Below are positions 375 to 36,781 of a DNA stretch of 45,123 nt, in pieces. The stretch is from a virus. The stretch spans positions 1-45,123 of the IMG/VR virus record IMGVR_UViG_3300030101_004497; one strand, 5' to 3'. Numbering within the stretch: position 1 is the first letter of the stretch; each line of letters opens with the position of its first letter. Position numbers and translations under genes: made by a program. The notes under the pieces were generated by a model. The model saw only the letters and a program-made list of their open reading frames with translations. It was not told the origin of the DNA and searched no databases.

Positions 375-1976
<1,602 letters not shown>

Positions 1977-2586: not shown

Positions 2587-2648
2587 GTTTTGTAATCGCT
2601 TAGGCACACGGCAAACATGTTTGCCAGTGCTGACAGCGATTACAAAAC
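2587..2648. repeat. 62-bp symmetrical dyad (cruciform/hairpin)
   Basis: Outer arms GTTTTGTAATCGCT (2587-2600) and AGCGATTACAAAAC (2635-2648) are perfect 14-bp complements. The exact centre is the 16-bp palindrome GGCAAACATGTTTGCC (2610-2625), and a GCAC/GTGC pair lies between. All elements share one centre of symmetry at 2617/2618. It lies between a leftward promoter and the 2192-2530 gene, so it is either a leader hairpin, a protein-binding operator or a replication structure. No T-run follows, so a terminator is less likely. Confidence 0.85.
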
Positions 2649-2667
2649 CACTGCATACCCCTTGGGT

Positions 2668-2696
2668 AATAGAACAGGTTCGGGAAACTTTGTCAA
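2668..2696 (-). promoter_or_regulatory. Leftward promoter upstream of the 112-aa gene
   Basis: Minus-strand consensus TTGACA (2691-2696), then 17 nt to TCTATT (2668-2673) or 19 nt to TATTAC (2666-2671). Transcription would start near 2660 and run through the 62-bp dyad. The -35 is perfect, the -10 moderate. Confidence 0.45.
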
Positions 2697-2877
2697 GGAA
2701 AAAAGTTGTAATCTTTTTATAAAGAGCAAAACTCCCGAATGTCCAAAAAATCTTCGAAGGGGTCCAATACATATATAGCCGGCGCCATGGGGGGGGGCAC
2801 ACCGCGCACCACACCCCGTGGGACAATAGGGTCAGATTGTGAACGAGGATGGGACAATGTCGCGCGCGCGCCAGGTT

Positions 2878-2898
2878 TAACAATCCCTTGGATTGTTA
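2878..2898. promoter_or_regulatory. 21-bp operator-like inverted repeat
   Basis: TAACAATCC and GGATTGTTA are perfect 9-bp inverted arms separated by CTT. Size and symmetry match binding sites of dimeric HTH repressors. It lies in the long non-coding region that controls both the leftward groEL block and the rightward RNA/early operon. The phage's own HTH proteins (37646-37999, 43535-44011, 43842-44120) are candidate binders; that link is inference. Confidence 0.5.
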
Positions 2899-3042
2899 CT
2901 CGGATTTTGTGTTCAGAATGGCATCTCTAGCCTCGTTTCGTTGTCAGTAGGTAGGATGGGAGCAACGACAACAGAGCAAGCGAGCAGAGCCCATTTGGCT
3001 ACATATCAACCAAAACTTTTTTTCCCCATATAAATAGCCTTG

Positions 3043-3077
3043 GAGATAATCCGTTCAAAATGATTATCCATTATCTC
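3043..3077. promoter_or_regulatory. AT-rich inverted repeat, operator-like or hairpin
   Basis: GAGATAAT (3043-3050) pairs with ATTATCTC (3070-3077); inside, GATAATC (3045-3051) can also pair with GATTATC. The four overlapping GATAAT-type half-sites in 35 bp look like a multi-site operator or a switchable hairpin. It lies about 180 bp upstream of the promoter at 3232-3261. Confidence 0.4.
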
Positions 3078-3188
3078 AACTCCAGACGGCCCTTTTTCAC
3101 CGCTTGCACTGGGTTCGGAGCTTTTATTATCCGAAAAGATGAAATATTTTTGATTGTAATTACATCCAGTAATGATGGGGCTTTTACG

Positions 3189-3250
3189 GTATTCTTTACG
3201 GGTTGATTATCGATTAATTGGTGGGTATCGGTTGACATTGTAAAGAATAC
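3189..3250. promoter_or_regulatory. Inverted repeat overlapping the structured-RNA promoter
   Basis: GTATTCTTTAC (3189-3199) and GTAAAGAATAC (3240-3250) are perfect 11-bp inverted repeats 40 bp apart. The right arm occupies the spacer between the -35 (3232-3237) and -10 (3256-3261). A protein bound there would block RNA polymerase, and the two sites could be bridged by looping. Confidence 0.55.
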
Positions 3251-3261
3251 TGGGATATAGT
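3232..3261 (+). promoter_or_regulatory. Strong rightward promoter for the structured RNA / early operon
   Basis: Perfect TTGACA (3232-3237), 18-nt spacer, TATAGT (3256-3261, five of six). Predicted start near 3268, immediately before the block of stable hairpins. No other strong rightward promoter was found before the first early gene at 3998, so this one may serve both. Confidence 0.7.
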
Positions 3262-3267
3262 GGAATT

Positions 3268-3970
3268 GTCAACGAGACGAAAGCATACTGAAACAGGATT
3301 GTTAGACTTTGCCACTTACCACGGAATACGAGGTAAGCCCAAAAGGGCCCTACGGGGTTGCTCCGCGACATTCCGTGCGCTTAATAGGCGTAACGGTCAA
3401 GAGAATGAGCTAGTGGTCGCACTGGTACGTTTCAGGGGAATTTTCCCTCCTTCAAAGCTGCGAATTTTGCGGGACGTAATCCACGAAAGCCAAGTACCTA
3501 GTCTGAGCATAGGTAGAATGATACACTCCTCACGTCTCTTTTCCGGCGGGGCGGTTTTGGCTTCAATCTAGGGATTGAAGGGGCTTGGGAAGATACCCGA
3601 GTCCGTAATAAAAAGGGCAGCTTGTTATGTCGACATCCGAACGTCGGCGGCCAAATATATCAGTCAAGCAGCTACGTTATCACGGTATTCTTAAAGGGTA
3701 CTCGGAGCATAAAAATTGATAACATAAGCTCGTGGATGATTGACGGATATATGGAAGCCACTAACAACTAGCTAACACTTTTAAGAGCTACCCTTTTCAT
3801 TGTAATATTTATCTCTCTAGTATAGAGGGATAGACACCGAGCTAGACTTCAGGCACTCCCGACCTTTCCGCCTCATATTTCGAACAGGATTATACCGTGG
3901 ACATGCTGCGAACAAAGCTCAACGTCTATCCCTCCTTACACTATGAACACAAGACAAGCTTGTGTTGATA
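3268..3970 (+). ncRNA. Large structured non-coding RNA, about 700 nt
   Basis: No credible protein gene lies here, yet stable helices follow one another. Examples: CACGGAAT/ATTCCGTG (3320-3327/3370-3377) enclosing hairpins GCCC-AAAA-GGGC (3337-3348) and CGGGG-TTG-CTCCG (3353-3365), a three-way junction; CTAGTG-GTCG-CACTGG (3410-3425); AGGGG/TCCCT (3434-3448); TACCTA/TAGGTA (3495-3500/3510-3515); CTTCAATC-TAGG-GATTGAAG (3561-3580); a 9-bp helix 3581-3589/3596-3604; GCTTG/CAAGC (3620-3624/3665-3669); GTTATC/GATAAC (3676-3681/3718-3723); an 11-bp long-range helix 3825-3835/3924-3934 with inner GAGCT/AGCTC (3839-3843/3916-3920); and AACACAAG/CTTGTGTT (3946-3953/3959-3966). Several helices use G-U pairs that would be A-C mismatches on the other strand, so the RNA is the plus strand. 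Size, ornateness and phage setting recall the GOLLD and ROOL families, but I cannot confirm membership. It may double as the 5' leader of the early operon. Exact ends are estimates. Confidence 0.75.
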
Positions 3971-3978
3971 CTGCAAGT

Positions 3979-3997
3979 AAACACACGGAGATAACCA
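3979..3997 (+). promoter_or_regulatory. First copy of the repeated early-gene leader
   Basis: The sequence aaacacacGGAGATAACCA precedes the ATG at 3998. Near-identical leaders precede the genes at 4330, 4706, 5014, 5929, 6317, 6532, 6959, 7191, 7390, 7718 and 7790, and leftward at 2530. GGAG is the ribosome site; the A/C-rich bases before it and the ATAAC after it are conserved beyond what ribosome binding needs. Confidence 0.8.
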
Positions 3998-4252
3998 ATG
4001 AGCGTATTTATGATAGACCTGAGCACGGGAGCCACCCTTGAGCTTCCATCAACACAGCAGACATATCAAACGAAAGTAGACACGGACACAGGAGTAATAA
4101 CGCTTGTTTCGTTACCTGCTCAAGATATGAAAGCTCAGTATGGTAGCTGCTGGATATGTCCAGTGGTAGCCATGCGTGAAACAAGACAATCATATAAAAG
4201 CTGGATGCTTGACCAGATAACTGAAAACAGACGCATATTAGGCATTGCATGA
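3998..4252 (+). CDS. Hypothetical early protein, 84 aa
   Basis: Not recognised. 84 residues beginning MSVFMIDLSTGATLELPSTQ; the first half has alternating beta-type residues (QTYQTKVDTDTGVITLVSLP) and the rest is helical and basic. One Cys pair, CWIC, near residue 51. No membrane segment. The leader acacacGGAGATAACC fixes the start. First gene after the structured RNA; its stop codon TGA opens the hairpin element at 4250-4305. Confidence 0.75.
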   Translation: MSVFMIDLSTGATLELPSTQQTYQTKVDTDTGVITLVSLPAQDMKAQYGSCWICPVVAMRETRQSYKSWMLDQITENRRILGIA

Positions 4253-4305
4253 CCCTTGCGAACGGGTGACCCGTCACCCGTTACCACGGCTTATTCAATC
4301 CTGAA
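4250..4305 (+). repeat. Intergenic hairpin element, copy 1
   Basis: Starts at the stop codon (TGACCCTTGCG), then AACGGGTGA (4261-4269), loop CCCG, TCACCCGTT (4274-4282), then ACCACGGCTTATTCAATCC. Copy 2 at 4931-4985 has the same flanks and a hairpin of the same shape in which the G-C pair at stem position 8 is replaced by A-T. It sits between two early genes, upstream of a leader, so an mRNA processing, stability or translation role is likely. Confidence 0.8.
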
Positions 4306-4329
4306 TGAGACAATCATGGAGATATAACA

Positions 4330-4683
4330 ATGACACAAGAACACAGAAGACTATCAAAGACTAGCACCACCGAGTTTATCCTGAAGTCGGGAACCAACAA
4401 AGGCCACCGTCGAATATGGATTGAAAAGCGAGTGCTAGCTCAGTACGGGTTCACACCTAAAACCATGATGAAAAGGCGTTTTGTGAGTGACCTGAACACA
4501 CGAATGGTACTTGAAACAACCACTGACCGTAAGCTCAAAAAGCATACTGTATCTCAAAAGAAAGGGGTCCCAGTGATTGACATGGTAGGCAAGCAGATAA
4601 CCGCTTTCATGGGCAAGTATCCACGGGTACGTGTTGAAGTAAGGCACGGACGTATTTTGATAACCCCAACCTTTGACCAATAG
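4330..4683 (+). CDS. Hypothetical early protein with SymE/AbrB-like strand pattern, 117 aa
   Basis: 117 residues, very basic. The stretch RRIWIEKRVLAQYGFTP is like the GxRLxxxGFxxG-type beta pattern of SymE/AbrB-like folds, followed by a basic linker and a second module PVIDMVGKQITAF and VRVEVRHGRILITP. Such two-part proteins occur in phages and plasmids with unknown function; this is recollection, not a search. Likely nucleic-acid binding. The leader is catGGAGATATAACA before the ATG. Lies between the two copies of the intergenic hairpin element, with one gene between it and the second copy. Confidence 0.75.
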   Translation: MTQEHRRLSKTSTTEFILKSGTNKGHRRIWIEKRVLAQYGFTPKTMMKRRFVSDLNTRMVLETTTDRKLKKHTVSQKKGVPVIDMVGKQITAFMGKYPRVRVEVRHGRILITPTFDQ

Positions 4684-4705
4684 CCTTAACGCCGGAGATA
4701 TAACA

Positions 4706-4933
4706 ATGACTATTAAGTACACGCCAGAATGGGCACTAAACCAAATGAAATGGTTCTACTTAAACAACATGAAAAATTTTGCACGGAATATGATGTGGGA
4801 TTTTGAAAGAGTTGCAAGCGACTGGAATAACCCTCATAACGTACGCGGCCTTTATTTTGACTGGACGCGGGAAGATTTTGAAAACACAGCCCGATTATAT
4901 GAAGAGTGGCGAAACAAAAAAGAGTCTGAATGA
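4706..4933 (+). CDS. Hypothetical early protein, 75 aa
   Basis: 75 residues, rich in Trp, Asn, Phe and Met (MKWFYLNNMKNFARNMMWDF) and ending with a charged helix. Not recognised. An in-frame upstream TTG exists at 4673, but the leader GGAGATATAACA supports the ATG at 4706. The stop TGA begins the second hairpin element. Confidence 0.75.
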   Translation: MTIKYTPEWALNQMKWFYLNNMKNFARNMMWDFERVASDWNNPHNVRGLYFDWTREDFENTARLYEEWRNKKESE

Positions 4934-4985
4934 CCCTTGCGAACGGGTAACACTCGTTACCCGTTACCATGGCTTATTCAATCCA
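4931..4985 (+). repeat. Intergenic hairpin element, copy 2
   Basis: TGACCCTTGCG, then AACGGGTAAC (4942-4951), loop ACTC, GTTACCCGTT (4956-4965), then ACCATGGCTTATTCAATCC. Compared with copy 1 the flanks differ by about one base, the loop is two bases longer, and one base pair has changed on both sides. This supports selection for an RNA hairpin rather than for the sequence itself. Confidence 0.8.
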
Positions 4986-5013
4986 GAGTAAACCAAACAC
5001 ACGAGATATAACA

Positions 5014-5859
5014 ATGAGATACATGAAAGTATGGAATTTAATCCAGAAAGGTAGACACCTGTCAACACGACGACGTGACCCCATCAAGTACATGACGAAA
5101 CATGAAACACCGGAAGAAGCCAGTTTGGCCTGGCTGCTTGGGACAAAAAGTATCATTGGAACGTCATCTAAAGTAGTAATGGGTGAGTTTTATCAATGGT
5201 TGACAAAGGTCATGTACTTTGCTCCCTTTAACCTGTCCGGTTTTCAAGTGTGCCCATTTGCCACGCCAGCTTGTAAAAAAGACTGCCTTGGCCATAGTTC
5301 GGGCAACCTTGTATTTCAAGGTCAAACCGAGGTACTAAGAACATGGTCTTACTATCTACACAGTGAACTATTCCACACCAAGCTGGACATGGCTATTAAA
5401 ATGCTAGGCATGGAAGCTGTGGTCAAGGGCATGCAAGCTGCCGTTCGATTGAATGGGAGCTCTGACTTGGACTGGTCTGACGTAATAGAACGACATGCTG
5501 AATCAGGTGTGCAGTTTTATGATTACACAAAAGACTTTGAACGGGCTGTGGCCAGTATTGGAACGAACTACCATCTAACGTATTCCATCAGTGAAAAACC
5601 CGAGTCATGGGAAAAGGGTATATACCTTGTCCAACGTGGTGGCACTGCCGCCGTGGTGACTCACCGAAACAAAAAGAAAGCTGCTGCCTTTGGCCAGTTG
5701 TTATCTGACAGGTTCGGTGTGGGTGTTGCCGATGGCGACCGTCATGACCTGCGCTTCTTGGACAAGGGTAAGCTTGTAACTCTGACTGCAAAGGGCAGCA
5801 TGAAAGAGGAATCAAAATTTGTCTGGACGCGAGAACAGTTCGATAAACTTGCAGGATAA
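5014..5859 (+). CDS. Gp88-family phage protein
   Basis: 281 residues resembling the phage 'gene product 88' family, function unknown. Diagnostic block: NLSGFQVCPFATPACKKDCL with Cys80, Cys87 and Cys91, a small Cys cluster that could bind metal. It is followed by an Arg-rich helical region, VRLNGSSDLDW near 150, FYDYTKD, and YHLTYSISEKPESW; the pattern of a Cys cluster, RLN..SD..W and FYDYTK is what I recall of the family. Longer in-frame starts exist from 4969, but the leader acGAGATATAACA before the ATG at 5014 decides the start. Largest gene of the early operon. Family assignment fairly firm, role unknown. Confidence 0.8.
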   Translation: MRYMKVWNLIQKGRHLSTRRRDPIKYMTKHETPEEASLAWLLGTKSIIGTSSKVVMGEFYQWLTKVMYFAPFNLSGFQVCPFATPACKKDCLGHSSGNLVFQGQTEVLRTWSYYLHSELFHTKLDMAIKMLGMEAVVKGMQAAVRLNGSSDLDWSDVIERHAESGVQFYDYTKDFERAVASIGTNYHLTYSISEKPESWEKGIYLVQRGGTAAVVTHRNKKKAAAFGQLLSDRFGVGVADGDRHDLRFLDKGKLVTLTAKGSMKEESKFVWTREQFDKLAG

Positions 5860-5870
5860 TCGATGGTGCG

Positions 5871-5913
5871 CACCGAGCTTCTGTTCGGTGTCCACAATGG
5901 GCAATCCTGCCCA
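5871..5913 (+). promoter_or_regulatory. Double hairpin upstream of the 5929 gene
   Basis: CACCGA (5871-5876) pairs with TCGGTG (5885-5890), and TGGGCA (5898-5903) pairs with TGCCCA (5908-5913) around loop ATCC. The second hairpin ends just before the leader catGGAGATAACA. Position and shape parallel the hairpins before other early genes although the sequence differs. Confidence 0.6.
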
Positions 5914-5928
5914 AACATGGAGATAACA

Positions 5929-6297
5929 ATGACTAATAAAATGCGTGAGTCGAAAAAGGCTTTAAGGGCTCGTGGCGTTGAGTTTGGACGCGAGATGAAG
6001 TCCCGCTTTGAAAAAGTAATTTCAACAGAAGGGCGTCCTCGAAAAGGTGGTTTTTTCAGATTCGAGTGGGACGTGTTGGAGGGGAAAAAACTCCTGCACG
6101 GCTACAGTGCCGAGGTAAGTGTTCTAAACTCTGAAACCGACGAGGTAGAAGTTCTTTGGACTTGGATTGACCACACTCAAAAACCTGCCGTATTAGTTAC
6201 GGACAAAACTAAGACGACTTTGGACCGAGTAACCATAGGTTTTCTTGAGCCTCTCAAGATGAATAAACTTGTTCAAAACACTGCAAAGTCTAAATAA
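5929..6297 (+). CDS. Hypothetical early protein, 122 aa
   Basis: 122 residues. The basic N-terminal helix (MTNKMRESKKALRARGVEFG) is followed by a beta-rich domain (GGFFRFEWDVLEGKKLLHGYSAEVSVLN, VLWTWIDHTQKPAVLVTD) suggesting a small OB- or barrel-like fold; this is inference from the strand pattern. No known motif. The leader GGAGATAACA fixes the ATG at 5929 rather than the upstream in-frame ATG at 5863, which lies inside the hairpin region. Confidence 0.75.
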   Translation: MTNKMRESKKALRARGVEFGREMKSRFEKVISTEGRPRKGGFFRFEWDVLEGKKLLHGYSAEVSVLNSETDEVEVLWTWIDHTQKPAVLVTDKTKTTLDRVTIGFLEPLKMNKLVQNTAKSK

Positions 6298-6316
6298 GAC
6301 ACACACGGAGCTAACA

Positions 6317-6439
6317 ATGAAGATTGTATTTACAACACTAATACTTGAAGAAGCTATCGCATATTGCGACAAGCGAAAACTACAAGACTTAATCATCGAC
6401 CGCACTATTTGTCGACGGTACAACGTTCTAAGAGCGTAA
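6317..6439 (+). CDS. Small early protein, 40 aa
   Basis: A 40-codon ORF with a full copy of the early leader (acacacacGGAGCTAACA) directly before its ATG. The peptide begins MKIVFTTLILEEAIAYCDKR and ends RRYNVLRA; it reads like a single amphipathic helix with a short beta start. Not recognised. The leader makes translation very likely despite its size. An orphan leader copy follows its stop. Confidence 0.7.
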   Translation: MKIVFTTLILEEAIAYCDKRKLQDLIIDRTICRRYNVLRA

Positions 6440-6440
6440 C

Positions 6441-6458
6441 AACACACACGGAGATAAC
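6441..6458 (+). promoter_or_regulatory. Orphan early leader without a start codon
   Basis: aacacacacGGAGATAACA is present but is followed by TCATCAAAGC, not ATG, and the next start codon is at 6532 behind its own leader copy. The gene that once followed may have been lost or replaced by the hairpin sequence at 6471-6515, or the leader acts as RNA rather than only as a ribosome site. Confidence 0.65.
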
Positions 6459-6470
6459 ATCATCAAAGCT

Positions 6471-6515
6471 GCCCACTAGGTTTCGACCCGGTGGCCACCT
6501 TGGGCGATGTTGCCC
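6471..6515 (+). promoter_or_regulatory. Competing hairpins upstream of the 6532 gene
   Basis: CCAC/GTGG (6473-6476/6491-6494) with inner GGT/ACC forms one hairpin; GGGC/GCCC (6502-6505/6512-6515) forms another. GCCCA (6471-6475) can alternatively pair with TGGGC (6501-6505), which would break the second hairpin. The leader of the next gene follows directly. This could be a simple translation switch; only the pairing is seen. Confidence 0.5.
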
Positions 6516-6531
6516 TAACACGGAGATAACA

Positions 6532-6942
6532 ATGAAAGATAGAATACTAAAGGCTGCCATCATGGCGGCTCTAAATGAAATGACACAAAGTGAACTTGAT
6601 AACATGCCTGATTCTCATTTTGAGGGCTCGGGGCCTGTCTTCATCGTAAAACATGAGGAGTGGCTTGACCGTTGTCGTGACACAGTAGAGGAACATTTCA
6701 ACCCATGGGACGTCTTCGACCTGTGTAAGTCTTCCCCTTCTATGTTCCCAAATGAGATTTTGCAGGACCACTTGCAACGTCAGGGTGTGATAACGATACC
6801 CCATAGTGACTACTATCATGACAAAGGTAAAAAGGAGTGGATAAACGACATGAAAATCATTCTTGACATGATGTGGCGTCGGATAGACTGCCCATCAACA
6901 AAGACAAAAGCCGTCGCCGAGTGGCTGGCGGAACAACTATAA
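6532..6942 (+). CDS. Hypothetical early protein, 136 aa
   Basis: 136 residues, acidic, mostly helical (MKDRILKAAIMAALNEM, WLDRCRDTVEEHFNPWDVFD, WINDMKIILDMMWRRID). Not recognised. The leader acacGGAGATAACA sets the start at 6532; the longer frame from 6364 runs back through hairpins and the 40-residue gene and is rejected. Next gene starts 17 nt downstream. Confidence 0.75.
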   Translation: MKDRILKAAIMAALNEMTQSELDNMPDSHFEGSGPVFIVKHEEWLDRCRDTVEEHFNPWDVFDLCKSSPSMFPNEILQDHLQRQGVITIPHSDYYHDKGKKEWINDMKIILDMMWRRIDCPSTKTKAVAEWLAEQL

Positions 6943-6958
6943 ACACACGGAGATTACA

Positions 6959-7201
6959 ATGACACAAGAACAAGCAGCAGGACGTATCATTTGTGTGTCG
7001 TCAGCAGAAATCCGAACTCAATCGAACAACCTGTTCCTACTGGTTGAGGACTTCGATGACAACATAGCACTGCTGAAGGCTGACAGTCCGGCAACTGAAC
7101 GCATAAACCAACTGCTAGAACAACTCATGGACATAACATCCGAGCTAGACATGATTGGACAAACACTAACAACACACACGGAGATAACCAATGACCCTTG
7201 A
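6959..7201 (+). CDS. Hypothetical early protein, 80 aa
   Basis: 80 residues with a long amphipathic helix in the middle (ALLKADSPATERINQLLEQL) that could form a coiled coil. Its last residues, THTEITNDP, are simply the next gene's leader translated, and it overlaps that gene by 11 nt, which couples the two. The first codons (ATGACACAAGAACA) match those of the gene at 4330. Not recognised. Confidence 0.7.
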   Translation: MTQEQAAGRIICVSSAEIRTQSNNLFLLVEDFDDNIALLKADSPATERINQLLEQLMDITSELDMIGQTLTTHTEITNDP

Positions 7202-7370
7202 GTTTAAACAAAGATACATGGATCCCCTTAAAAGTCAATGGATAACATTCAGGTTTGAAAATGAAACTTGGTTTGTTTATCCTGACGGGCAGGTAGCTGA
7301 CAGTTGCTTTTGGAACTTAGCTGACATCACGTATAAAAGTCTTTACGACTTCATAAATAGTAACCTTTAA
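7191..7370 (+). CDS. Small early protein, 59 aa
   Basis: 59-codon ORF beginning MTLEFKQRYMDPLKSQW and ending DFINSNL, with a perfect leader (acacacGGAGATAACCA) before the ATG. Aromatic-rich (TWFVYPDGQVADSCFWNLAD), probably a small globular fold. Not recognised. It overlaps the end of the preceding gene. Confidence 0.7.
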   Translation: MTLEFKQRYMDPLKSQWITFRFENETWFVYPDGQVADSCFWNLADITYKSLYDFINSNL

Positions 7371-7389
7371 ACACACACGGAGATAACCA

Positions 7390-7695
7390 ATGAACTACTA
7401 CAATATAAAACAATCAATACGAGAAGCAGCAGAAGCCTGTGGCATGGAACCCATTCCCACGGGTGGAGGCTGTGACTACATGGTACTGGAGTGGGAACAC
7501 CTTAACCTGGTACTGTGTGACGACATGCATGAGAGTGGCGTCGCTTGGAATGAACCATGCTGCATCGTCTTCTACGACAGTTACTTTGGAAACTGTGATG
7601 TTGGTTCCCCACAACCAATCTACGAAAAGGCTTTTCCCAGCCCACTGGAGGCTTTACTCTTCATCAAGAACTTTAATGGAACAGTCAAACTATAA
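7390..7695 (+). CDS. Hypothetical early protein, 101 aa
   Basis: 101 residues, acidic, with six cysteines, including CC near residue 57. Begins MNYYNIKQSIREAAEACGMEP. A pattern of short strands and helices without a known motif. Start set by the early leader ending 2 nt before the ATG. Not recognised. Confidence 0.75.
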   Translation: MNYYNIKQSIREAAEACGMEPIPTGGGCDYMVLEWEHLNLVLCDDMHESGVAWNEPCCIVFYDSYFGNCDVGSPQPIYEKAFPSPLEALLFIKNFNGTVKL

Positions 7696-7717
7696 ACACA
7701 CACGGAGATAACCTAGA

Positions 7718-7771
7718 ATGCTAATCATATTTATCATCGCACTCTTTTACTTTATCTGGTACACAACCTAA
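7718..7771 (+). CDS. Putative 17-aa membrane micropeptide
   Basis: A complete early leader (acacacacGGAGATAACC) precedes an ATG that opens only 17 codons: MLIIFIIALFYFIWYTT. The peptide is one hydrophobic segment long enough for a short membrane helix. The only support is the leader and the composition; it could also be a remnant of a longer gene. If real it would be a tiny inner-membrane effector, as several phages use against host or competing phages. Confidence 0.5.
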   Translation: MLIIFIIALFYFIWYTT

Positions 7772-7789
7772 CAACACACGGAGATTACA

Positions 7790-8104
7790 ATGATTGAAGA
7801 AACCGCATCCACAAATGCAGAAACAAAATCGACAGAAGAACTTCGTGCGGAGTATGCCCAGCAACACGCATGGTGGAACGATACCCTTGGTCTTTGCCTG
7901 GAACACATATACAAATGTGCTTGGGAGAACAACGTGTACTTGACCGCTCATCAGTTGTATAACAAATGCCGCACGATGGCCGTGGACGTACTTACGAAAG
8001 AGGGCGACCCTCTCATGCTCAGTAGGTATGCAAAAGTTATTCTAGGCGTGATTACGCTCGAGGAATACCATGGATACCAACCACCAACCGAACCACCATT
8101 CTAG
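7790..8104 (+). CDS. Hypothetical early protein, 104 aa
   Basis: 104 residues, mainly helical, with an acidic Thr/Glu-rich N-terminus (MIEETASTNAETKSTEE) and a Trp/Cys-containing core (WWNDTLGLCLEHIYKCAW). Not recognised. Last gene with the standard leader (acacacGGAGATTACA); the following genes use other ribosome sites and may be a separate acquisition. Confidence 0.75.
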   Translation: MIEETASTNAETKSTEELRAEYAQQHAWWNDTLGLCLEHIYKCAWENNVYLTAHQLYNKCRTMAVDVLTKEGDPLMLSRYAKVILGVITLEEYHGYQPPTEPPF

Positions 8105-8112
8105 GAGCCAAC

Positions 8113-8523
8113 ATGAATGAATACGCATGCCGGATGCACGTCAGACCATCGGACAACTTTCACAAGGGCGGGCCAAAGTGTACCTTCCTTACGAGAAGAA
8201 TACGAAACTTCCTGTACTGCTGTCAGGGTAGGCAGATAGTTATTCGCCATTACCTGAAACAGGATGAGGTGTTCTTGTATGAACTGGGACAACACCAGTG
8301 GACAAGAACACCCAATCCAACCAAACCAATTGGACTGGACACGTCTCGCTTTGACTGCGGCCTGACTTGGGTTGCAGAACGCAACCAGCCTCAAGTAAGA
8401 CCCTTGGGTCACTGGCGAGACGGGAGCCGACCTGGTCGATGGGTTATCTACGTTCCTGAATCATTTGACCCGTACGTAAAACTAAAATATCTAAAAGCAA
8501 AATACCACACTTACATTCCATAG
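8113..8523 (+). CDS. Hypothetical protein, 136 aa
   Basis: 136 residues, basic, rich in Arg, Tyr, Trp and Pro. Begins MNEYACRMHVRPSDNFHKGG; four Cys residues do not form a recognisable finger. AGGAG 7 nt before the ATG; 8 nt after the previous stop. Not recognised. Confidence 0.7.
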   Translation: MNEYACRMHVRPSDNFHKGGPKCTFLTRRIRNFLYCCQGRQIVIRHYLKQDEVFLYELGQHQWTRTPNPTKPIGLDTSRFDCGLTWVAERNQPQVRPLGHWRDGSRPGRWVIYVPESFDPYVKLKYLKAKYHTYIP

Positions 8524-33446: not shown

Positions 33447-35162
33447 TCATTGTGGTGGAAATTGTAATTGTTGTGCCAGCGCCGCTTCCCCTGCGGCAAC
33501 GGCTTCGTCTTCTACTTCTAAATCATCTTTTAAAATACTTGGACGAACTGAGAACATATCTATGATTTCTTTGGTGATCTCACGCCAGTTCACCTCATCG
33601 TTAGATGGCGTAGCGGAAATTTGTCCCAGCAACGCAACCAACTGCTCTCTTCGAACAATCTTGTCTTCCATTAGAGGACTGAATGGTAGTATTCTAAATT
33701 GTGGACTGTTCTCAATAATCTCTCTGGATATAACATCGCTACTTACATCCATTTGCGTTTGTCTGGTTATCATTTCCATATCAACGCCCGATGTTTCAGT
33801 GTTTGTTATTGCCCATCGCAAAACTTCCAAAGCCTTGTCAAACCCACGCTTCACAAACTTCGTCAACACTCTTGTCCGTACTTGCATACGACCTTGCACT
33901 GAAGCCTGTACCATGTTGGCTTCTGCTGCTGTACGGATGTTCTTGACTTGGCCTCGTTGGTAATCAGCCATACCTGCAATGTTCTTAATGTTGATTGTGG
34001 CTTGATCAAGATGTCTGTTAAAATCAAATGTCGTTGGCATGTCAGGTGTAACGTACACCATGTCTCCAACTAAATTTTGACCATCCGTTTCAACTGGAAC
34101 CGGCTCCCAAGTTTGACTATTCATAAAACGTGCTGCATCTTCCTCGTTCGGGAACATGGCCTTGTCATAGAACATTCGTTTGGGTAATCTTCGTACTATC
34201 TCTCGTCGGGCTGAAACCAGTTCATTGATGTCCTGCTGCAATGGTGCAAGTAAAGAGACATCCGGTATACCTCTCAATCGACCTACACCATCGTGGAACA
34301 CAAGTTGGTCGTATGGGTTGCCGTAAGGTAACTCTGTTACCATCAGTATTTGATCTGTGCCAGTATGCACATGATATAGCAATCTCTTTCTGAAGTCCCA
34401 ATACTCATGCAGGGTAACATACTCTTTCAGCATTTCCTGTTCATACTGTTTGTCGTCGTATCCGTCGTTCATGTAATCGGCTATCAACGATCTTGGAAAA
34501 GTGTCTGGCTTGATTGCTTTACCATTTTGCAAAACGTAACTACCGTTCTCGATCCTTTCACGAAGAACTGATTCATGCAAAATGAATCTTTCACTTGCCC
34601 AACTTATGTCTGTCAATCTTCTTGCTGATGGATCAAACTGAACTTCCCATGGCATTTTCATACGCCAAATCACTTGACCTTTTTCCATTGACCAGGTAAT
34701 TTTGCGAACAGCACCGATTGAAAACAACATCGCATGCAGCGTTGCTTCTCTCGTTGTTTCATCTAGGTTGTCTCGTTCTGCCATCCAATTTAGAACAGAT
34801 GCAATACGACGGCCCACAAAAGTAGAATCTTCATATCTGTCAGGTATATCGTAAGTCCTCTGGCGTACGTCCAATACCTCACACTGTGGTAGATCCAAAG
34901 CCAAACTACTTGTTATGGTATCTATGATAGGAAAGATTTCATTCTGTTGAGCATTGTAATTTTCAAGGTCTGAGAGAACGGCATAACCATCACCCTCCCA
35001 AAACTTACCACGCCAATATGAAAGGTTCCTTGCATCTTCTCTGGCTATGTTTTTTTTGTAGTATTCTTCAGCCTTTTTTATGATGCCAATAATCTTCTTA
35101 GAAGTCTTTTGAAGCTTCTGTTTTTCGGACATTTCTTTTGGTTGGTCGTTACCATAACTCAT
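33447..35162 (-). CDS. Portal protein
   Basis: 571 residues, the size and position of a podovirus portal, the dodecameric ring through which DNA is packaged and ejected. Helical N-terminus (KIIGIIKKAEEYYKKNIARE), YWRGKFWEGDGYAVLSDLEN, a central wing/stem region (QDINELVSARREIVRRLPKR) and INIKNIAGMADYQRGQVKNIRTAAE-type helices near the crown are typical. The ATG overlaps the terminase stop (ATGA). Confidence 0.82.
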   Translation of the reverse strand: MSYGNDQPKEMSEKQKLQKTSKKIIGIIKKAEEYYKKNIAREDARNLSYWRGKFWEGDGYAVLSDLENYNAQQNEIFPIIDTITSSLALDLPQCEVLDVRQRTYDIPDRYEDSTFVGRRIASVLNWMAERDNLDETTREATLHAMLFSIGAVRKITWSMEKGQVIWRMKMPWEVQFDPSARRLTDISWASERFILHESVLRERIENGSYVLQNGKAIKPDTFPRSLIADYMNDGYDDKQYEQEMLKEYVTLHEYWDFRKRLLYHVHTGTDQILMVTELPYGNPYDQLVFHDGVGRLRGIPDVSLLAPLQQDINELVSARREIVRRLPKRMFYDKAMFPNEEDAARFMNSQTWEPVPVETDGQNLVGDMVYVTPDMPTTFDFNRHLDQATINIKNIAGMADYQRGQVKNIRTAAEANMVQASVQGRMQVRTRVLTKFVKRGFDKALEVLRWAITNTETSGVDMEMITRQTQMDVSSDVISREIIENSPQFRILPFSPLMEDKIVRREQLVALLGQISATPSNDEVNWREITKEIIDMFSVRPSILKDDLEVEDEAVAAGEAALAQQLQFPPQ

Positions 35163-36781
35163 CTGTGCCTTCCCCAGCGTGTATTTGCTTCCGTTTGACT
35201 TGACGCATCTATTCTTCTTTGTAACCTTAACATGGCTTCTGCCGCCAACAATTTAGGGTCTTTACGCCTTGAGCGCCATTGCGAACCTCTCTTTTGCATG
35301 TAAGCCCATGCCGCTCCAGCCCATGCTGATGCCAAGTCATAGTGGCCTCCTTCTTGATCGCGTGATCTTGCACCCCAAGTACCCCTGTAAGACATCAGTT
35401 GCCTGAGTGATCTTACACTATGTATGGTAACAGATTCATCTTCAATAAGCTGTTGCATAAATCCTTCAGCTTCTTTTTTTGTTTTGGTGTTTGAAAACCA
35501 ACCTGCAATGCGGCGTTTGCTTTTACCATATCTGCTTGATGGTCTATGATAAACTCTTCGATAAGCAATGTTTGGATTGTCCACCAGATGAGACAATACA
35601 GATTCACCAACACCATTCGACTCGACGTATATCATCGCATCATTGTACTTACGTCCCCATTCTGCAAGCCTTTGTGCCATCTGGTATGCGGATATGTGGC
35701 CAAGGTATTCTGCCGCCTGTTCACAGGTGCTGATGTTTAAAACAACCACACCAAAGTTATCACGATTCGACCAAGAACCAGCAGGGTCACAAAATATTAT
35801 GTACTGACTTTGTGGGTCGGGCTCTTCAAACTGTACCCATGGGTCTGATATAACCGAAACACCAGTACCACCATCTATCTCTTGCAACATTTGACGCAGT
35901 ATGTTTTGGTCATATACGGCGTCACCGGTCATAGCCCAGCACTCGACGTCATTGATGGGATACTCTTGTTTAAACTTCTCCATGTTTCGATTACACTTTG
36001 GTAACCCACTGGTCTGCAACCAATATGCTTGACCTGGTGTAATAAACTTGTACTTGTCCCAATACTCGGTGACACTTCTGTTGGGAATCCAACCGGGTGG
36101 CGGCTCAATGCTGTACTCTTTCACCATTGTCCATGGAATAAATACCTTCATCCACTTGCTGTCTGGTCTTTCAGAATCCATACAAAGCATATGCAGTTGG
36201 TCGCCATGATGTTTTGGCGTTGACTCTGCTACCATGAATCCACCATTTTGTGGTATGGAGTTTAACACTGAAGCCCATACTTCGTCGCCCCCTTCTTCCT
36301 GCCACGAAGAAAGCTCAGTACCCAGTACAACCTGACACGTTTCACCACGTAGAGGCTCATCGTCTTGCACTGACGCCACACTAAGTTTGCTGTCAATGTC
36401 AGGAAACTCCAGTGTTCTTTTGACTGCACCCTTTCTGTATGGCTGTATTTTTTTCGGTGTTGATTTGTAAAATCGGTTTGCAATCTCAGCCAAAGATTTA
36501 GCCGTTTGTTTTTTGTGACCAATGATTGCAGCATGACAACCAGAACGAAAGGCAGCATGTTGGTACGTTATACCGGTAAAGAAAGTTGATGAACCCTCTT
36601 GTCGTGGCTTGATGTGGACTATCCACTTCTCTTGTGCATACGCATTGACCACTGCTTGTGCCAACAGCTTTTGATGGTCCCAAAGATGGAAAGGCTGCAA
36701 ACCCTCAGACTTGGTTCTTATCTGAAGCATAGGCAAAAACAACTCTGGGTTCCAAAATCTGCTGTCGGATGGTAGTATCAT
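35159..36781 (-). CDS. terL: Terminase large subunit
   Basis: 540 residues, the ATP-driven packaging motor with a nuclease domain. Walker-A-like KPRQEGSST at 58-66; a Walker-B/glutamate segment VVLGTELSSW with Glu156; the C-terminal RNase-H-like nuclease has Asp in IIFCDPAGSW (about 333), Glu in IYVESNG and Asp in GGHYDLASA. These fit the terminase family well. In the Walker A the usual Gly after Gln is Glu (PRQEGSS), a variant seen in some phages. Start overlaps the previous stop. Confidence 0.93.
   Translation of the reverse strand: MILPSDSRFWNPELFLPMLQIRTKSEGLQPFHLWDHQKLLAQAVVNAYAQEKWIVHIKPRQEGSSTFFTGITYQHAAFRSGCHAAIIGHKKQTAKSLAEIANRFYKSTPKKIQPYRKGAVKRTLEFPDIDSKLSVASVQDDEPLRGETCQVVLGTELSSWQEEGGDEVWASVLNSIPQNGGFMVAESTPKHHGDQLHMLCMDSERPDSKWMKVFIPWTMVKEYSIEPPPGWIPNRSVTEYWDKYKFITPGQAYWLQTSGLPKCNRNMEKFKQEYPINDVECWAMTGDAVYDQNILRQMLQEIDGGTGVSVISDPWVQFEEPDPQSQYIIFCDPAGSWSNRDNFGVVVLNISTCEQAAEYLGHISAYQMAQRLAEWGRKYNDAMIYVESNGVGESVLSHLVDNPNIAYRRVYHRPSSRYGKSKRRIAGWFSNTKTKKEAEGFMQQLIEDESVTIHSVRSLRQLMSYRGTWGARSRDQEGGHYDLASAWAGAAWAYMQKRGSQWRSRRKDPKLLAAEAMLRLQRRIDASSQTEANTRWGRHR

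Follow-up and report, generated by a model that had tools for sequence, protein, structure and literature searches.

What kind of element occupies the long stretch between the early promoter of this phage and its first early gene? The earlier note had read positions 3268-3970 as one large structured RNA, recalling GOLLD and ROOL or else a new class, that would also lead the early operon. We analyzed the locus in the window, by which we mean the whole stretch of DNA presented here, a viral record of 45,123 bases whose ends are linear. We propose, giving the reading about an even chance of being right, that 3268-3997 is an untranslated leader of the early operon that ends in a cis-acting switch for the first early gene. 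That the leader is a single transcript, that it switches, in which direction it regulates and what triggers it are points that we infer rather than observe.

The phage and its divergent control region

The phage appears to be of a marine type. Its genes include those for head proteins, a C5-cytosine methylase and a Cro/CI-type HTH protein, together with the following:

375-1973, minus strand: GroEL-type chaperonin, ~43% identical to chaperonins of described phages
33447-35162, minus strand: portal protein
35159-36781, minus strand: TerL

TerL is ~24% identical to that of the best described phage, Roseobacter phage CRP-7; the TerL alignment placed it at 45-92% identity to 34 IMG/VR contigs and found no relatives in bacterial genomes. 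The genome has no tRNA genes (ARAGORN) and no iterons or other repeat families, and the proteins scanned include no integrase. Operator-like sites, together with the Cro/CI-type HTH protein, suggest that the phage is regulated and may be temperate.

The locus lies in a gene-poor 1.47 kb between a minus-strand gene, starting at 2530, and a plus-strand gene at 3998. Three features define its control region:

3189-3199, plus strand: operator-like 11-mer GTATTCTTTAC, first arm of an exact inverted pair with 3240-3250
3240-3250, minus strand: second arm of the operator-like 11-mer, an exact inverted pair with 3189-3199
3232-3261, plus strand: early promoter, TTGACA-N18-TATAGT, the sole 11/12 sigma-70 match on either strand of the genome

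The near-consensus promoter that had been reported at 3232 is therefore genome-unique at this stringency, with 0.02 such matches expected in the 1.47-kb region, and we infer a transcription start at ~3268. The GTATTCTTTAC pair is among the few perfect inverted repeats of at least 11 nt in the genome, where perfect inverted repeats are concentrated in 2587-3934. Its second arm sits in the spacer of the plus-strand promoter and shares bases with the -10 of a promoter-like site on the minus strand. Because the pair flanks the promoter and the minus-strand site opposes it, we regard the region as a divergent control region.

The leftward side was also inspected. A 55-aa minus-strand ORF (3071-3238) has its ATG 5 nt past a -10 hexamer and may, as cI does from PRM in lambda, be read without a leader. 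We also rejected a symmetrical counterpart of ~700 nt, running leftward on the minus strand (3237 to 2531): it is exceptional only in its last 60-120 nt, and the 55-aa ORF may start at the same promoter. Directly before the minus-strand gene lies a near-perfect 62-nt inverted repeat (2587-2648) with the inner palindrome GGCAAACATGTTTGCC; the sequence around it (2580-2769) folds with z ~ -7 on both strands, and similar hairpins occupy the same place in two relatives, G007 (45312-45373) and G015.

Coding potential, homologues and folding of the leader

The statement that no protein gene fits the stretch withstood closer scrutiny. Its six read-through frames gave no Pfam or PHROG match above threshold (one sub-threshold Pfam match, E 0.05), and a 103-aa ORF at 3260-3571 has no phage tblastn match and a weak codon score; the six-frame family scans rule out a protein-coding origin. 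Covariance models of Rfam 15 detected nothing in the window at gathering score and nothing at E<=5 in 2900-4300, so that cmscan rules out membership of GOLLD, ROOL, OLE and HEARO. Neither a terminator between 3268 and 3998 nor a GC-rich stem with a T run before the first gene was found in the window's leader, which also contains no BoxA-like sites and no minus-strand promoter of good quality. The supposed likeness to GOLLD and ROOL thus gives way to a stretch that has no Rfam match, lies in a genome lacking tRNA genes and continues, terminator-free, into the Shine-Dalgarno sequence of the next gene.

The search for homologues by sequence was equally unproductive. We found none by blastn in phages and plasmids, no alignable leader in IMG/VR scans with GroEL, GP88, the first two early genes and the 112-aa gene, and none with a 21-mer searched in genome contigs. 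A search with the paired-arm DNA pattern returned only the window itself, as did single-sequence covariance models of domains III (R1) and II (R2) run over 129 sources, the window and its relatives included.

Folding of the plus strand of 3268-3970 exceeds that of shuffled sequence, as the earlier note required of a structured RNA, with z ~ -3.5 to -5: -222.1 kcal/mol versus -192.3+-5.9 (z -5.06, 0/20 shuffles), z -4.3 to -5.1 in repeats with other shuffle numbers (-4.3 with 60), and z -3.5 on extension to 3268-3997. The stretch is the most extreme among the sampled 703-nt plus-strand segments of the genome, and a similar z is reached by a few coding segments (29201, 8201). The strand specificity that had been claimed was not borne out. 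Over the whole region z on the minus strand is -3.3 to -4.5, and in 3606-3802 that strand surpasses the plus strand; since it folds equally well, the strand cannot be told from folding alone.

The excess is unevenly distributed, with z -1.5 to -1.8 in the 5' half (3268-3604) and z -5.5 in the 3' half (3605-3997). Three domains can be distinguished:

3268-3604, plus strand: leader domain I, a run of hairpins (among them 3409-3426, 3495-3515, 3561-3580 and 3581-3604); z -1.5/-1.8
3606-3802, plus strand: leader domain II; z -3.7 on the plus strand, -5.5 on the minus strand
3809-3994, plus strand: leader domain III; z -6.2 on the plus strand and -5.4 on the minus strand (3809-3997), 0/100 shuffles

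The stability of domain I as a whole is within chance. Domain II has an interrupted 16-bp closing helix (3606-3623/3785-3802), an arm (3649-3675/3732-3759) and a hairpin (3629-3648), with pairing probabilities of 0.5-0.98. Domain III is bounded by an outer helix (3809-3816/3987-3994) and contains the 11-bp closing helix 3825-3835/3924-3934, at pairing probability 1.0, an inner helix (3839-3843/3916-3920) and a hairpin (3946-3953/3959-3966). The earlier description of about ten helices forming one large RNA was overstated, in that folding is exceptional in 3605-3997 and ordinary in 3268-3604. A three-way junction drawn at 3320-3377 is 2.5-3.5 kcal/mol worse, when forced, than an alternative fold, in a region of z -1.5; the long-range closing helix and the helix inside it were confirmed. 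The limits need revision at one end, where the structural unit runs beyond 3970 into the Shine-Dalgarno sequence of the gene at 3998.

Intergenic DNA that has no function and folds well by chance would account for the ordinary 5' half, for the missing homologue and for the few coding segments (29201, 8201) of similar z. Domain III, with z -6.2, and a pairing topology that recurs in G007 (described below) are hard to reconcile with such DNA, and we consider chance highly improbable.

A predicted switch before the first early gene

At its 3' end the leader meets the start of the early operon, and the segments that can pair there are as follows:

3808-3819, plus strand: switch segment A, which can pair with A' or the Shine-Dalgarno region
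3823-3835, plus strand: switch segment A', which can pair with A (12 bp) or A2 (11 bp)
3924-3934, plus strand: switch segment A2, which can pair with A' (11 bp)
3982-4000, plus strand: cassette CACACGGAGATAACCAATG at the translation start of the first early gene; ~10 copies of its core lie in the early operon (0/100 shuffles)
3998-4252, plus strand: first early gene, an 84-aa ORF with a Shine-Dalgarno sequence

The first early gene has no family match, and plus-strand early genes extend to ~9.6 kb. About ten early-gene start regions carry the cassette ACACGGAGATAAC, many immediately 5' of the ATG, and its first copy forms the end of the leader. As a start-associated sequence, ACACACGGAGATAACCAATG, the cassette precedes ~ten early genes (3983-7790), and G007 has its own version, AAGGAGGATAACCAATG. 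Farther into the operon, at 8260-8440, a strong inverted repeat (GGTGTTCTTGT..ACAAGAACACC) lies within a 136-aa ORF (z ~ -5.7, both strands).

Segment A can form two mutually exclusive helices, a 12-bp hairpin with A' (3808-3819 with 3823-3834, 3-nt loop) and an 8-bp helix of 3809-3816 with the Shine-Dalgarno region 3987-3994 (GGAGATAA). When growing transcripts were folded in silico, the A:A' hairpin (-12.4 kcal/mol) was predicted up to position 3925, A':A2 by 3940 and A paired with the Shine-Dalgarno region by 3997, the last helix being worth ~4 kcal/mol. The complete A/A'/A2/Shine-Dalgarno topology, which was defined post hoc after looking at the window, arose at native strength in 0/600 and 0/500 shuffles. 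Pairing of A with the Shine-Dalgarno region is by itself not significant, helices of at least 7 bp occurring in 122/600 shuffles, nor is the accessibility of the Shine-Dalgarno sequence, which is below that of 71/80 shuffles.

We propose the following course of events. The leader would be transcribed from the repressor-controlled promoter at 3232 as the start of the early, rightward operon, with domain III as the switch, perhaps on domain II as a platform, setting expression of the first early gene. During transcription A (3808-3819) would pair first with A' (3823-3834); the emerging A2 (3924-3934) would then capture A' by strand exchange, forming the 11-bp helix, to whose stability the inner 3839-3920 arm would add, and the freed A would cover the Shine-Dalgarno region and turn the gene off. 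Binding or opening of the 3835-3924 arm, or holding of A:A', would leave the Shine-Dalgarno sequence free. Candidate triggers are a protein, a metabolite, a ribosome, temperature or transcription speed, and the remaining leader could be a sensor, platform or spacer. Two hallmarks of attenuators and riboswitches are found here: an untranslated stretch between the promoter (3232-3261) and the first operon gene (3998), and predicted mutually exclusive helices that include the Shine-Dalgarno sequence. As a structured non-coding transcript between promoter and operon, the leader proposed by the earlier note is well supported.

The same stretch might instead be a stand-alone large RNA of the GOLLD, ROOL or ICP1-lncRNA type, accumulating in infection and acting in trans, its upstream position incidental. 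Its size, phage setting and strong promoter fit such an RNA, as does the precedent of ICP1, a phage without tRNAs in which an ORF-less RNA of ~800 nt is more abundant than any other transcript (PMC7567579), and the terminator-like hairpin ending the G007 leader would release a discrete RNA. We nevertheless hold this to be unlikely, given that the window has no Rfam match and no 3'-end terminator, that its strongest domain takes in the Shine-Dalgarno sequence of the next gene, and that the 5' half is not exceptionally structured and no sequence is conserved in relatives.

We think it very unlikely that the leader is processed into an antisense regulator or an immunity RNA, like those of satellite P4 (cI) and P1 (C4), that pairs with other phage messages. 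Segment A does match GGAGATAA of the recurring start cassette, and several early genes could be its targets in trans: duplexes of -7.8 to -8.5 kcal/mol are predicted with the starts at 3998, 4330 and 7390, the cassette is repeated ~10 times, and the genome has operator-like sites and a Cro/CI-type HTH protein. However, an 8-mer complementary to a Shine-Dalgarno sequence is expected by chance, and there is no Rfam match, no good minus-strand promoter in the leader and no integrase in the proteins scanned.

Relatives and known systems

Upstream of the early operon, relatives share a conserved ~80-base block (window 2740-2830) made up of a T run, GGGG, a TATAGTAT-like element, G7-9 and a C run. 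This G-block occurs in at least nine phages of the TerL group, down to ~50% TerL identity, mostly preceded, some 250-400 nt away, by the start of a minus-strand gene of 112-211 aa; it is possibly an origin, promoter or packaging element. The plus-strand gene follows it by 456-504 nt in the more distant relatives G016, G017, G021 and G025, where the last 250 nt before the gene are weakly structured (z -1.2 to -2.0), and by 480 nt in G015. The first early gene follows it by 1209 nt in the window and 1030 nt in G007, and the extra distance is the promoter-leader stretch.

In G007 TerL is 75% identical and the locus order the same, and the leader sequence is unrelated to that of the window. Its leader (46010-46609) folds with z -3.5 in the sense orientation, against -0.65 for the opposite strand, with structure only in the 3' half, where the switch segments were located:

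46514-46523: A of G007
46527-46540: A' of G007
46574-46585: A2 of G007, followed by TTTTT
46610-46614: Shine-Dalgarno sequence of G007

A':A2 of G007 makes a terminator-like hairpin followed by T5. None of 500 shuffles reached the G007 topology, in a test that applied the window-defined topology with the threshold for the Shine-Dalgarno helix lowered from 6 to 5 bp. Because G005 is identical in sequence to G007, these are two independent cases, not three. ORF calling at a 60-aa cut-off yields spurious ORFs that mask the G007 leader, and ORF-less gaps in G021, G025 and G031, which by eye resemble interrupted coding sequence, were left out. By eye, too, a short ORF, with three Leu codons in a row (CTC CTC CTA), crosses the A hairpin of G007 (46470-46550, L100) and may be a leader peptide.

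The switch would be translational in the window and probably transcriptional in G007. Rather than to a giant RNA of the GOLLD/ROOL type, the findings point to a lineage-specific leader that works as an attenuator or in the manner of a riboswitch. It is doubtful whether the two leaders belong to a fast-evolving new class of large phage early-leader RNAs that keeps its architecture (a structured 3' half and the A/A'/A2/Shine-Dalgarno switch) but not its sequence and responds to some signal as infection begins. The new class of the earlier note is not established, with no sequence homologue and only the 3'-end topology recurring, in one relative.

Relatives also bear on whether the inverted repeats act as DNA near the early promoter, as replication origin, protein-binding or recombination sites, with folding on both strands a by-product. 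Good folding on both strands, the clustering of perfect inverted repeats in 2587-3934 and the conserved G-block in the same intergenic region of many relatives would suit such elements. An iteron-type origin is ruled out by the lack of iterons or other repeat families, in the G007 leader only the sense strand is structured, and the strongest elements of the window adjoin the first gene rather than the promoter. We judge DNA-level elements to be distinctly unlikely.

If the proposed switch exists, an RNA switch lies directly behind the main early promoter and commitment to early expression depends on a signal read by RNA; leaders of 600-730 nt are unusual for phage early operons. Should the switch recur in a relative where the sequences are dissimilar, elements of this kind would escape homology searches, those with Rfam among them.

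Attenuators and riboswitch expression platforms use mutually exclusive antisequestor and sequestor, or antiterminator and terminator, helices in 5' leaders. The four-strand A/A'/A2/Shine-Dalgarno arrangement of the window, in a long 5' leader beside the first gene, resembles them, as does the A':A2 helix of G007, followed by T5 as in an intrinsic terminator. Unlike them, the window's leader has no known aptamer or T tract, is far longer than usual and serves a phage early operon. GOLLD is often found near tRNA genes. The leader shares phage origin, size class and lack of an ORF with GOLLD and ROOL, but it has no covariance-model match or tRNA island, continues into the operon and folds exceptionally only in its 3' half; GOLLD-like action in trans, as distinct from membership of the family, is still conceivable. 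Satellite P4 and phage P1 encode immunity RNAs in the structured leader of an early operon, whereas here we find no Rfam match, a repressor-type promoter and a predicted helix sequestering the Shine-Dalgarno sequence. GOLLD and ROOL, which are characterised by assembly into homo-oligomeric RNA cages, are giant RNAs of phages and prophages with determined structures (PMC12286853), and the ~800-nt ORF-less transcript of ICP1 illustrates that such regions can yield the most abundant phage transcripts (PMC7567579). As in ICP1, the leader lies in an ORF-less region of ~1 kb in a phage without tRNAs, but the ICP1 region adjoins the lysis cluster (PMC7567579), shows no similarity by R1 or R2 and has a smaller folding excess (z ~ -2) than the window's leader. 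The start-associated sequences (SAS) of cluster K mycobacteriophages likewise repeat directly before the start codons of many genes (PMC3203893), with the sequence GGGATAGGAGCCC in place of the ACACACGGAGATAACCAATG found here.
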